Source: an uncultured Clostridia bacterium
Lineage (GTDB): Bacteria; Bacillota; Clostridia; Lachnospirales; CAG-274
Assembly (NCBI GenBank): GCA_944381435.1
Contig: CALWLD010000001.1
Coordinates: 186,001 to 250,000 of the forward strand
DNA: 64,000 nucleotides
Direction: 5' to 3'
The position numbers were made by a program, and so were the translations under genes. Positions 53,606 to 57,812 of the stretch are shown here, piece after piece; the first letter of the stretch is position 1, and each line of letters starts with the position of its first letter. Below the pieces are notes generated by a model that was given only the letters and a program-made list of their open reading frames with translations, was not told the origin of the DNA and made no database searches.

Positions 53606-55546
53606 ATGGTTAATAGATTAAAAAAGATAATTATATCATTAACACTAATTTTAACTATGATTGTGCCAAGCTTTAGTGCTTTTGGCGCAGACCCTGTATA
53701 TGTTAAATTAAACGGTGTTTCTATTGCATATGAAGATGCACAACCACAGATTATGAACCAACGTGCAATGGTTCCTTTTAGAAAAACAGCAGAAACTTTA
53801 GGGGCTACCATTGAATGGAACAAAGAAACAGAAACAGCTACTATGATAAAAGGCGATAGAGTTGTAGTACATACTATGCGTACGCAAATAATAACAGTAA
53901 ATGGTAAAGCTTATACCTTTGATACACCATCTGCTGTTATACAAGACAGAACAATGATGCCTGTTAGAATGCTTAGCGAAGCATTAGGAAATCCTGTAAC
54001 TTGGGATAACTCTACAAGAACAGTTAATATAGTTGCAGATGAGCCTACTGTTGTTAGCATTGTGCCAGATAAAACAACAGTTAATAGCGGTGAAAAAATA
54101 AACATTGCTGTAACTACTACATCTACTACAGATAGAATAAAAATTTTAGATATAAATGAAAACAACAGTGTTATTGCAGAGGCTAATACATACAGCACTA
54201 ATGCAGATGGTACAAGGTTATTTTCTATACCTTGGACACCAAGCGTTGCTAAAAGCACATTTAAAACATTAAAAGCAGTTCCTGGTAATTTAACTACATA
54301 CAACGAAAGTGCTACTGCATATAAAGTTTGTGCTATTAGCATAAATGGAGACATTAAGCCAAAAATTACATCATTTAATGCAGATAAAAGAGATGTTGGT
54401 AGAGGCGACAAAGTTAAATTAACTATAGAAGCTAACGCTAATACAGATAGAATAAGAATAGATTCTTCTACAAAAGAAAAATTAGTTGAATTAACTAACT
54501 ATAAATTAATAGACAATGATGCTAACCGTAGAGTTTTTGAAACAGAAGTTACTATGGAAGATAGAGGCGATATAGAATTTAAAGCATATCCAGGTAATGT
54601 ATCTAGCGGTTATGAATCTACTTATGAAAGTTTAAAAATAACTGTTGGTGGTACTGGTAGCGCTAGCTCAAATGATAAACTTAAAATAAATGATACTTTT
54701 ATTTTAAATGATGAAATATATGTAGATGAAACAGTTAACCTTATTGTAAAAACATCTACAGATATTGATAAAATAGAAGTTTTAGACGAAAACGATAAAA
54801 TCATAGATGAAACAAGATTTGCATCTATTAAAAATGGCAGTGAATACATTTGGGAAATGGATGTAGATGTTAAAAATAGCGGTAGAAACAGAGTTTATAT
54901 TGTAGCTTACGATAAGGACAAAAACACAACAAAAGAAAGCTTAAGCTTTAGTGCTTCTACATATAGTAATAGTGATTTAGCTATAATAAATATGGAGCAA
55001 AGAGATATAGGAGCTGTATCTGGTGATAGTGTTAAATTCATCATTAGAACAACAGGACAAGCAGAATATATCAAAGTTTTTGAAGGTAGCTCTGAGCTTA
55101 CAAAAGTTACAAGCTATTCTAACGATGGTTCTGTTAGAGAATGGGAGATAAAGGTTAATGTTACAACATCTAACAAAGATAGCCTAAAAGTTGTGGCTTA
55201 TGATAAAAATGAAAGACAAGTGTCTTCAAAATTAAATGTTTACCTAGATTCTCAAGCATCTGGTAAAATTTATGACTATGATTTAAGAACACCAGAAGTT
55301 TATAAAAACGAATATATAAGAATAGATGTATTTACTAACAAAGCTATTAAAAAAGTTTGGATAGAAGATGATAACGCTAGATTGATATTAAAAACATCTT
55401 ATGATAGCGTAAGCGGTGATGAATATACTTGGGAAATGAAATTCCCTGCTGAAGAAGTTGGAAGTAGCATAAGATATACTATATATGCAGAAGATGAAAA
55501 TGGCAAAAAATTTGATGAAACATTTAGAGTTCGCGTAAATAACTAA
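53606..55546 (+). CDS. Secreted stalk-domain (copper amine oxidase N-like) protein with Ig-like repeats
   Basis: 646 residues. Signal peptide (about 1-27, ending FSAFGA). Residues about 30-140 are a copper amine oxidase N-terminal/stalk domain (VKLNGVSIAYEDAQPQIMNQ, RAMVPFRKTAETLGATIEW, RTMMPVRMLSEALG), which is non-catalytic and common in clostridial surface proteins. The rest is about five beta-rich repeats of 75-110 residues with V-x-(L/F)-I...I-K-(V/I)-x-E...Y...W-E-(M/I). Probably wall- or matrix-associated; it has no S-layer or LPXTG motif. Its stop codon TAA abuts repeat copy 1. Confidence 0.8.
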   Translation: MVNRLKKIIISLTLILTMIVPSFSAFGADPVYVKLNGVSIAYEDAQPQIMNQRAMVPFRKTAETLGATIEWNKETETATMIKGDRVVVHTMRTQIITVNGKAYTFDTPSAVIQDRTMMPVRMLSEALGNPVTWDNSTRTVNIVADEPTVVSIVPDKTTVNSGEKINIAVTTTSTTDRIKILDINENNSVIAEANTYSTNADGTRLFSIPWTPSVAKSTFKTLKAVPGNLTTYNESATAYKVCAISINGDIKPKITSFNADKRDVGRGDKVKLTIEANANTDRIRIDSSTKEKLVELTNYKLIDNDANRRVFETEVTMEDRGDIEFKAYPGNVSSGYESTYESLKITVGGTGSASSNDKLKINDTFILNDEIYVDETVNLIVKTSTDIDKIEVLDENDKIIDETRFASIKNGSEYIWEMDVDVKNSGRNRVYIVAYDKDKNTTKESLSFSASTYSNSDLAIINMEQRDIGAVSGDSVKFIIRTTGQAEYIKVFEGSSELTKVTSYSNDGSVREWEIKVNVTTSNKDSLKVVAYDKNERQVSSKLNVYLDSQASGKIYDYDLRTPEVYKNEYIRIDVFTNKAIKKVWIEDDNARLILKTSYDSVSGDEYTWEMKFPAEEVGSSIRYTIYAEDENGKKFDETFRVRVNN

Positions 55547-55659
55547 GCAATTTTTTGAACATTTTATGTTAAAAACAGGTACTAAAAAATATTTTTATTA
55601 AATTTAAAACAAAATAATTTATAAATTTGGAAAAATATTAAGTCATACCTTAATTGCAA
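55547..55659 (+). repeat. Interspersed repeat, copy 1 (113 bp)
   Basis: Begins GCAATTTTTTGAACA and ends TCATACCTTAATTGCAA, so its ends GCAATT/AATTGC are inverted. Flanked by TAA on both sides, the left one being the stop codon of the stalk-domain gene. Internal hairpin TTTTTGAACA-TTTTA-TGTTAAAAA has one mismatch. Directly adjoins copy 2. Confidence 0.85.
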
Positions 55660-55662
55660 TAA

Positions 55663-55784
55663 GCAATTTTTTGAACACGTTATGTTCAAAAACAGGTATT
55701 CCTAAAATTTATAAATTTAAAATTTAAAACAAAAAACCGTTTATAAATTTTAAGTTGATAAATTAAGTCATACCTTAATTGCAA
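55663..55784 (+). repeat. Interspersed repeat, copy 2 (122 bp)
   Basis: Same orientation as copy 1, same ends, TAA on both sides. A perfect hairpin TTTTTGAACA (55668-55677), CGTTA loop, TGTTCAAAAA (55683-55692). The middle (ACAAAAAACCGTTTATAAAT) is shared with copy 3. Confidence 0.88.
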
Positions 55785-55792
55785 TAATAAAA

Positions 55793-55821
55793 GTTAATCC
55801 CACCTTTTAGGTGGGTTTAAC
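55793..55821 (+). terminator. Hairpin before pncB, probable terminator of the stalk-domain gene
   Basis: GTTAA-T-CCCACCT / AGGTGGG-T-TTAAC, TT loop, an internal T-T mismatch; the T-run after it is poor, so termination may be partial. Confidence 0.55.
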
Positions 55822-55860
55822 TATATTAAGTAGTTTTTTACTTTAATTATGGAGGATATT

Positions 55861-57312
55861 ATGAACGACAATCTAACACTTATGACAGACCTTTATCAAT
55901 TAACAATGATGCAAGGATATTTTGAGGCTAATATGCATAACAAAAAGGCTGTCTTTGATATGTTTTATAGAAAAAATCCTAGCAACAACGGATATGCTAT
56001 AGCTTGTGGGCTTGAACAGGTAGTGGATTACATAAAAAATATAAAATTTGATAAAGAAAGCATAGATTATTTAAAAAGTCTTAACATATTTAAAGATGAT
56101 TTTTTAACATATTTAGAAAGTTTTAAATTTACAGGGGATATTTATGCTATACCAGAAGGTACTGTAGTATTTCCTGGTGAGCCTTTGGTAAGGGTAAAAT
56201 CTAGCATAATGGAGGCTCAGTTTATAGAAACTACAATACTTAACATAATAAACCATCAAAGCTTAATAGCTACAAAAGCTGCTAGGGTATCTTGGGCTGC
56301 ACAAGGTGATGTTGTTATGGAATTTGGATTAAGAAGAGCTCAAGGGCCTGATGCAGGTGTATATGGAGCTAGAGCAGCAGTTATAGGTGGGTGCAACTCT
56401 ACAAGTAATGTGCTTGCAGGTAAAATGTTTAATGTGCCTATAGCAGGGACTCACGCACATAGCTGGATAATGAGCTTTAAAGATGAGCTAACAGCATTTA
56501 GAACTTATGCTAATATATTTCCAGATAGATGTATACTTTTAGTAGATACTTATGATACGTTAAAAAGCGGTGTACCTAACGCTATAAAAGTATTTAATGA
56601 AATGAAAGAAAAAGGCATACATCTTAAAAACTATGGTATACGTTTAGATAGTGGTGATTTGGCTTATATATCAGAAAAAGCTAGAATTATGCTTGATGAA
56701 GCTGGTTTTGAAGATGCAAACATTACAGCATCTAGCGATTTAGACGAAAACATTATATCTTCTTTAAAACAGCAAGGTACAAAAATTAATGTTTGGGGTG
56801 TTGGTACAAACTTAATAACATCTAGCGATTGTCCTGCTTTTGGTGGAGTTTATAAGCTTTGTGCTGAAGAGGTTGATGGTGAAATGTTACCTAAGATAAA
56901 ACTATCTGAAAATCCAGATAAAGTTACAAACCCAGGTGTTAAAAAAATAGTTAGACTTTATGACAAAGCTACTAACAAAATTAAAGCAGATTTAATTTGT
57001 CTTGATGATGAGGTTATAGACGAAAAAGAAGATTTAACAATCTTCCACCCTATAAATACTTGGAAAACAATGACCTTAAAAGCTAATGAATATTACACAA
57101 AAGAGCTTTTACAACCTGTGTTTATAAACGGTGAATGTGTTTTTGAAAAAAGGGATACTATGGAGATAAAAGCATACTGTGAAAAACAAAAAGAAAGCCT
57201 TTGGAACGAGCATAAAAGGCTTATAAACCCTCATATTTTACCTGTAGATTTATCTTTAAAACTTTATAACCTTAAAAAAGAAATGATTGATAACATAAGA
57301 AAAAATAAATAA
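55861..57312 (+). CDS. pncB: Nicotinate phosphoribosyltransferase
   Basis: 483 residues from ATG at 55861, which has GGAGG 5 bases upstream; an earlier in-frame ATG (55849) overlaps that site. Conserved blocks: LTLMTDLYQLTMMQGYFEAN, EFGLRRAQGPDA, GTHAHSWIMSF (catalytic His region), LLVDTYDTLKSGVPNAIKVF and YGIRLDSGDLAYIS. It converts nicotinate and PRPP to nicotinate mononucleotide (ATP-assisted) in NAD salvage. It lies between direct repeat copies 1-2 and inverted copy 3. Confidence 0.96.
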   Translation: MNDNLTLMTDLYQLTMMQGYFEANMHNKKAVFDMFYRKNPSNNGYAIACGLEQVVDYIKNIKFDKESIDYLKSLNIFKDDFLTYLESFKFTGDIYAIPEGTVVFPGEPLVRVKSSIMEAQFIETTILNIINHQSLIATKAARVSWAAQGDVVMEFGLRRAQGPDAGVYGARAAVIGGCNSTSNVLAGKMFNVPIAGTHAHSWIMSFKDELTAFRTYANIFPDRCILLVDTYDTLKSGVPNAIKVFNEMKEKGIHLKNYGIRLDSGDLAYISEKARIMLDEAGFEDANITASSDLDENIISSLKQQGTKINVWGVGTNLITSSDCPAFGGVYKLCAEEVDGEMLPKIKLSENPDKVTNPGVKKIVRLYDKATNKIKADLICLDDEVIDEKEDLTIFHPINTWKTMTLKANEYYTKELLQPVFINGECVFEKRDTMEIKAYCEKQKESLWNEHKRLINPHILPVDLSLKLYNLKKEMIDNIRKNK

Positions 57313-57369
57313 AAAATATAGTGCTATAAACATAAAAATTACTTTTTGTTCATAGCACTATATTTTTTT
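57311..57369 (+). terminator. Terminator of pncB
   Basis: AAAAAATATAGTGCTAT pairs with ATAGCACTATATTTTTTT around a loop of about 24 bases; T-runs both ways. Confidence 0.8.
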
Positions 57370-57379
57370 GCGTTATTAA

Positions 57380-57501
57380 TTACAATTAAGGTACGACTTG
57401 ATTTATTTAATTAAAATTTATATACGGTTTTTTGTATTAAATTTTAATTAAATAAATTTTAGGAGTGCCTGTTTTTGAATACAAAGTATTCAAAAAATTG
57501 A
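57380..57501 (-). repeat. Interspersed repeat, copy 3 (122 bp, inverted)
   Basis: Opposite orientation to copies 1-2, same length as copy 2. Shares ACAATTAAGGTACGAC, ACGGTTTTTTGT and GCCTGTTTTTGAA blocks. Its hairpin is TTTTTGAATAC / GTATTCAAAAA (57472-57496): one C-G pair of copy 2 is a T-A pair here, and both sides changed together. The end of the XRE gene is encoded within it. Confidence 0.85.
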
Positions 57502-57812
57502 TTTAATATAGAAAAAAATAAATCTAAAGCTCTTTCTTTTTCATTATCAGGTAATTCTTCTAATATATTTGTTATTTCTGTTAGCTTAATTTCAATTTTG
57601 GTATTTAGTTTATCAGCTATAAGAACATCAGCAGAAACATTTAATACATTTACAATTTTTATAAAAGTTTCAAGGGTAGGTGTTTTGCTACCACGTTCTA
57701 TATTTCCAATATGTGTGGTGCTTAAATCTAATAGCTCAGCAAACTTTTCTAAAGTTAGGTTAGATTTTTTTCTATATTCTCTTATTTTTTTACCTATATT
57801 TTTGCTATCCAT
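57459..57812 (-). CDS. XRE-family (HTH_3) transcriptional regulator
   Basis: 117 residues. Helix-turn-helix at about 8-62: IGKKIREYRKKSNLTLEKFA, ELLDLSTTHIGNIERGSKTP. The C-terminal part is helical (about 70-105). The last 13 residues (QFFEYFVFKNRHS) and the stop are encoded by repeat copy 3, so the native C-terminus was probably replaced. Target unknown; it is divergent from spoIIR but may just be autoregulatory. Confidence 0.85.
   Translation of the reverse strand: MDSKNIGKKIREYRKKSNLTLEKFAELLDLSTTHIGNIERGSKTPTLETFIKIVNVLNVSADVLIADKLNTKIEIKLTEITNILEELPDNEKERALDLFFSILNQFFEYFVFKNRHS

Follow-up and report, generated by a model that had tools for sequence, protein, structure and literature searches.

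A genus-restricted family of structured, non-autonomous mobile repeats oriented by terminator hairpins in Clostridia

In the window, a 64,000-nucleotide stretch of DNA from an uncultured Clostridia bacterium, the nicotinate phosphoribosyltransferase gene pncB (NCBIfam NF006695, 713 bits) is bracketed by three copies of a short, folded repeat, which raises the question whether these copies are a local duplication, an RNA element at transcript 3' ends or members of a family that is mobilised in trans. Copy 1 (55547 to 55659, plus strand, 113 nt) has a short, degenerate inner stem, and its start adjoins the TAA stop codon (55544 to 55546) of the upstream ORF (53606 to 55546). It is followed head-to-tail by the full-length copy 2 (55663 to 55784, plus strand, 122 nt). 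Copy 3 (57380 to 57501, minus strand, 122 nt) is located on the other side of pncB, is full-length and of the majority type, and forms with copy 2 an inverted pair with 86% identity across 125 nt. A covariance model of the repeat recovers the three copies with E-values of 1.3e-8, 9.9e-21 and 9.5e-22, respectively, and the positions and strands given for them in the original prediction were confirmed in the sequence. Its description of the borders holds only for copies 1 and 2, which have the ends GCAATT...AATTGCAA and are exactly flanked by TAA (55544 to 55546, 55660 to 55662 and 55785 to 55787, the middle triplet joining both copies). The ends of copy 3 read TCAATT...AATTGT instead, and the described borders are not general in the family.

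All three copies contain a left-end hairpin, HP1, which spans positions 55552 to 55575 (plus strand) in the fold of copy 1, 55668 to 55692 (plus strand; TTTTTGAACA-CGTTA-TGTTCAAAAA) in copy 2 and 57472 to 57496 (minus strand; TTTTTGAATAC-TTT-GTATTCAAAAA) in copy 3. One pair of this stem is C-G in copy 2 (GAACA/TGTTC) and T-A in copy 3 (GAATA/TATTC), as had been noticed before. The second hairpin, HP2, occupies 55694 to 55775 (plus strand) in copy 2, where an AGGTAT/ATACCT base stem, a small internal loop and a long AT stem follow each other, and 57389 to 57470 (minus strand) in copy 3, as indicated by the fold and by pair changes. Compared with dinucleotide shuffles, copy 2 (z -7.4) and copy 3 (z -8.2; other strand -8.6) fold strongly and copy 1 weakly (z -2.1). 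The right end of copy 2 adjoins a terminator hairpin (55792 to 55822) that is older than the repeat and present without it in three sister species (G001, G003 and G004), while the right end of copy 3 adjoins the pncB terminator hairpin (57311 to 57368), whose 26-nt arms are 92% complementary. Between pncB and spoIIR, an ORF on the minus strand (57459 to 57812) resembles an HTH_3 repressor (RstR-like, below the cut-off); it is missing from G001, G003 and G007, and its frame extends into copy 3, gaining about 13 codons.

The original prediction expected a new repeat family if further copies existed genome-wide, and proposed a search of this and related genomes and a covariance model. In the genome of the window (G000; 2.16 Mb, 38 contigs), a DNA search yielded about 50 copies, and the covariance model, built from 39 G000 copies, detects 75 at the counting threshold of E<=0.01, far beyond the three at pncB. 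Six of the seven sister species of the genus also carry the repeat, with 22 copies in G001, 4 in G002, 8 in G004, 59 in G005, 61 in G006 and 6 in G007, and G003 has none. Outside the genus, the same model found no copy in 40 genomes that represent ten further genera of the family. The tandem arrangement of copies 1 and 2 is compatible with a local duplication at pncB, but as the sole origin such a duplication is refuted by the genome-wide copies and those in six sister species, and its probability is negligible. The repeat, which had not been recognised in the original prediction, has no family match in Rfam, which gave only a sub-threshold match that falls within pncB, and a known RNA family was rejected on this ground. 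Carriage by phages or plasmids was likewise rejected, because phage, plasmid and viral-contig collections returned no match, and the named database matches are metagenome-assembled genomes of uncultured Clostridia or Eubacteriaceae. The copies are many, dispersed and without coding capacity. The repeat is a real, previously unlisted and genus-restricted family of structured, non-autonomous mobile repeats. The clostridial genus to which it belongs has hardly been studied, and gains with it a large family of conserved structure.

Most copies read WAAT, then CAATT...AATTG, then TAATWAATAAAA; the repeat's end sequences are CAATTAAGGTACGACTTAATT and GTATTCAAAAAATTGATT. The canonical unit follows WAAT and consists of CAATT, HP1, CAGGYAYTCCTA, the long AT stem with a ACAAAAANCCGTTTATA-like tip, and AAGTCRTACCTTAATTG, which borders on TAAT. 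The fold common to all copies is a three-way junction closed by CAATT/AATTG, from which the short HP1 (consensus TTTTTGAAYAC..GTRTTCAAAAA) and the long HP2 (GGYAY/RTACC base, then the long AT stem) emerge. A subterminal hairpin is present near each end, namely HP1 at one and AATTAAG-N6-CTTAATT with the HP2 base at the other, and the inner motifs ACAAAAANCCGTTTATA and CAGGTACTCC/GTCGTACC are conserved. In an alignment of 116 genus-wide copies, which was fitted to the structure model, 32 of the 46 pairs show double compensatory changes (548 cells), whereas slid controls of the same alignment do not exceed 17 pairs and 87 cells, and none of 500 shuffles reaches any measure. An alignment that was not fitted to the structure retains doubly changed pairs at 18 of 46 positions, with 0 to 2 of 500 shuffles reaching any measure. 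By helix, the double changes affect 7 of 11 pairs in HP1 and 23 of 32 in HP2, the outermost terminal pair covaries from C-G to T-A, and an HP2 base pair is flipped from G-C to C-G in the G005/G006 type. The conservation of the hairpin that had been suspected is supported across the family. Covariation alone is no proof of selection, because perfect stems could likewise result from repair in which one arm serves as the template for the other. On the canonical strand, single-step intermediates are A-C in 144 and G-U in 86 cases, an excess that is due to a few inherited columns, and these counts give no support for an RNA on this strand.

Copies fall into length classes of 50, 76-82, 122 and 143 nt, all with the same ends. 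The 50-nt forms consist of HP1 and CAGGTACGACTTAATTGTAAT alone, the 76-82-nt forms are devoid of the inner stem, and seven copies of about 143 nt contain a different inner hairpin, TTTAGCAATTTTATAAATTGCTAAA; the internal parts are interchangeable. Solo right ends are also present. In G000, copies are arranged in tandem at no fewer than eight places, head-to-tail and in one orientation, with 7 to 8 nt separating AATTG from CAATT; such tandems are also found in G005 and G006. At G000:C10:43549-43668, one large palindrome is built from a 50-nt form, a terminator whose 24-nt arms pair perfectly and a left-end remnant in inverted orientation.

Empty sites with clean boundaries, which had been suggested as a way to recognise mobility, were found upstream of pncB in G001, G003 and G004, where stop codon and terminator are both the same as in the window and nothing of the repeat lies between them; G005 and G006 contain an apparent decayed or divergent copy at this place. 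Other empty sites are represented by the pairs L027/L174, L036/L163, L074/L177 and L096/L127, and the flank sums match the empty site to within a few bases. Some repeat loci are occupied in two or more species. Identical copies occur at distant loci, exemplified by copy 3, whose 120-nt core recurs unchanged in a copy located on a different contig (G000:C24:19076-19197). Because of the empty sites, the identical copies at distant loci and the length classes with the same ends, the repeat is a mobile, non-autonomous family that is MITE-like in the broad sense. The suggestion of a MITE-like element mobilised in trans is thus the best reading of the dispersed copies, empty sites and conserved hairpins. 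The empty sites fit a 3-nt TAA target duplication as well as no duplication, a duplication being indistinguishable here from a shared ATT, and co-variation of the left and right flanks is weak and confounded by tandem copies, with TAA flanking copies 1 and 2.

Two features were missed in the original prediction, the interchangeable interior and the target, which is the side of a terminator. Among non-tandem copies, a hairpin with a minimum of 7 bp, three or more of them G-C, is located within 15 nt of the right end in 46 of 103 cases, compared with 1 of 102 for the left end and 35 of 1500 random positions (2%). The right end of the repeat is locked to a terminator hairpin and its orientation is thereby fixed. 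At the empty sites that were read the terminators are present, and therefore they preceded the repeats; at the occupied sites that were read the terminator is retained. The same terminator can be used on both sides, as by C5:23673+ and C5:23843-, whose right ends point inward, and the orientation of the neighbouring genes is mixed without strong bias (22 minus/minus, 20 plus/minus, 16 plus/plus and 5 minus/plus). Thus, it is the palindrome, and not the direction in which genes are transcribed, that the right end is locked to. The start of several copies coincides with a stop codon or is close to one, and minus/minus sites have the repeat past the terminator. Of 101 copies read on the reverse strand, 75 have TTTATT close to the target side, versus 10% of AT-matched 16-mers, and 70 have TTGATT at the opposite end. 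The family clearly illustrates how mobile DNA can exploit intrinsic terminators as safe harbours, inserting beside the stem in fixed orientation and keeping the terminator.

A similar target is used by the IS200 elements of the same genus. These read hairpin-TTTTATT, followed at the insertion point by GTCGCC...hairpin-TTTTGATT, and the reverse strand of the repeat reads hairpin-TTTTATT, followed by WATTACAATTAAGG...hairpin-AATTGATT; read in this way, both end in a hairpin and then TTGATT. The IS200 left-end motif is accompanied by a hairpin within 15 nt in 16 of 22 matches. Among the remaining six, the context shows three not to be IS200, and inspection by eye reveals an AT-rich or long-loop hairpin at two, which brings the count to 18 of 19 left ends at a hairpin. 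The repeat has its target in common with the IS200 of its genus, and we take this parallel as the best available hint, not proof, that a Y1-type transposase moved it. Y1_Tnp genes are found in G000, G003, G004 and G005. The matches in G001 and G006 are weak or decayed, and G002 and G007 have no Y1 gene; G006 has 61 repeat copies yet only a degenerate Y1 remnant. By sequence, the Y1_Tnp genes of the genus are IS200, with ends unlike those of the repeat and different end-hairpin sequences. No transposase-bearing element with repeat ends was found among the right- and left-end orphans. The right-end orphans of G000, G005 and G006 are solo ends beside host genes or divergent full copies, and the search for an autonomous partner in G000, G004, G005 and G006 retrieved only solo ends, short forms and divergent copies. 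The orphan left end at G004:C1:200131 has a Y1 gene nearby, but this gene is part of an ordinary, truncated IS200 that possesses ends of its own, and a TnpB-bearing IS605 was discarded as a partner, since TnpB is confined to G003, the species without repeats. TnpB (PF07282) is encoded in six places there (L264-L269).

Based on these observations, we propose that the repeat is a short non-autonomous element of a single clostridial genus that forms a three-way junction in single-stranded DNA and is moved in trans by an IS200/IS605-type Y1 transposase, a proposal to which we give about an even chance. On the reverse strand, the 5' end (ATTACAATTAAGG) directly follows a terminator hairpin with its T-tract (hairpin-TTTTATT), and the 3' end is a hairpin with TTGATT behind it, the same architecture and target as in the IS200 of the genus. 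A TnpA of this type, matched to the hairpin sequence of the repeat, would cut and join it in trans, and the responsible enzyme may since have been lost or may not have been sampled. We infer the enzyme class, the single-strand mechanism and the retention of the structure for transposition; no guide sequences typical of IS200/IS605 were identified. More tentatively, and with some doubt on our side, the terminator hairpins of this genus could be a homing signal common to IS200 and the repeat, two elements that look unrelated; a Y1-type enzyme would then recognise the target hairpin itself as folded single-stranded DNA and move passenger hairpins whose sequences differ. Such homing would allow elements to reach about 75 copies while sparing genes, and through the IS200 parallel it becomes directly testable whether Y1 transposases choose a target by its sequence or by its hairpin.

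A classical MITE that is moved in trans by a DDE transposase, with a 3-bp TAA (or 4-bp TAAT) duplication and a preference for AT-rich DNA beside palindromes, would account for the TAA flanks of copies 1 and 2, for WAAT...TAAT around most copies and for the covarying outer pair of the terminal CAATT/AATTG, and a TAA duplication is compatible with the empty sites. We nevertheless consider it rather unlikely, because the terminal inverted repeat comprises only about 5 bp, CAATT/AATTG alone being paired, against at least about 10 bp in classical DDE MITEs; moreover, the left and right flanks vary largely independently once tandems are considered, a fixed orientation to one terminator side is not typical of DDE insertions, and no candidate transposase has matching ends.

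The compensatory changes in all helices, the conserved inner motifs and the closeness of terminators and stop codons would also suit an RNA element that acts at transcript 3' ends in mRNA stability, processing or termination and was spread by past mobility. Neighbouring genes on either strand and either side, the position beyond the terminator at minus/minus sites, the lack of a G-U excess on the canonical strand, the dispensable inner stem (50-nt and 76-82-nt forms) and copy numbers between 0 and 75 among sister species argue against it, and the dedicated 3'-end RNA considered originally is improbable. The targeting of a hairpin foot resembles that of group IIC introns, and homing to terminators by another retro- or recombinase-borne route, such as a group IIC intron reverse transcriptase or an IS1182/IS1272-like transposase, could be invoked. 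Comparable stem-loop targets are known for IS1272 (PMC5678879), but there is no group II intron match within 3 kb around the copies, and IS1272 replaces the stem-loop that is retained at the occupied repeat sites read, and we consider this route improbable as well.

The kind of element that the repeat represents is already known. What is unusual is that its orientation is locked to terminators, that its interior is modular and that it shares its target with IS200. Short, intergenic, folded and gene-less repeats such as bcr1 of the Bacillus cereus group and BOX and RUP of pneumococcus are treated as non-autonomous mobile units. They are unrelated to the repeat in sequence, and differ from it by its terminator-locked orientation and interchangeable inner hairpin, and its direct target repeats, if any, are TAA. 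Like the Y1 TnpA elements of the IS200/IS605 family, the repeat has subterminal hairpins at both ends without long inverted repeats, and appears to be inserted 3' of a short fixed sequence; with the IS200 of the genus it shares the target behind hairpin-TTTTATT and the TTGATT hexamer after the right-end hairpin. ISDra2 inserts 3' of TTGAT, and its TnpA binds a subterminal structure folded by the left end (PMC2806898). The repeat differs in that its hairpin sequences are unrelated to those of the resident IS200, that it has no matching tnpA and that it contains a large second hairpin inside, and Y1 genes are absent or decayed in some repeat-rich species. REP and BIME palindromes are short, intergenic and associated with Y1 (RAYT) transposases (PMC2817692, PMC3733652), REPs having a length of 20-40 bp (PMC3733652). 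The repeat differs by its unit of about 122 nt with two hairpins, its consensus contains neither the GTAG nor the CGTC tag of REP/RAYT systems at the hairpin foot, and no RAYT of the genus was identified apart from IS200. IS1272, of the IS1182 family, targets inverted repeats or stem-loops and replaces them (PMC5678879); unlike the repeat, which keeps the terminator hairpin, it has its own transposase and terminal inverted repeats.

Rfam pemK RNA (RF02913) matches lie beside or near repeat insertions in G005 (L070:1380-1459 and L263:714-793), and the G003 site related to L070 is empty. Nearly all IS200 copies of the genus are found immediately 3' of a terminator hairpin, at TTTTATT followed by G (L180, L184, L185, L244-L249, L178, L179 and L186, in G004, G000 and G005), and at L179 (G000:C2:167828-168420) the insertion site of an IS200 is the very outer end of a degenerate repeat.
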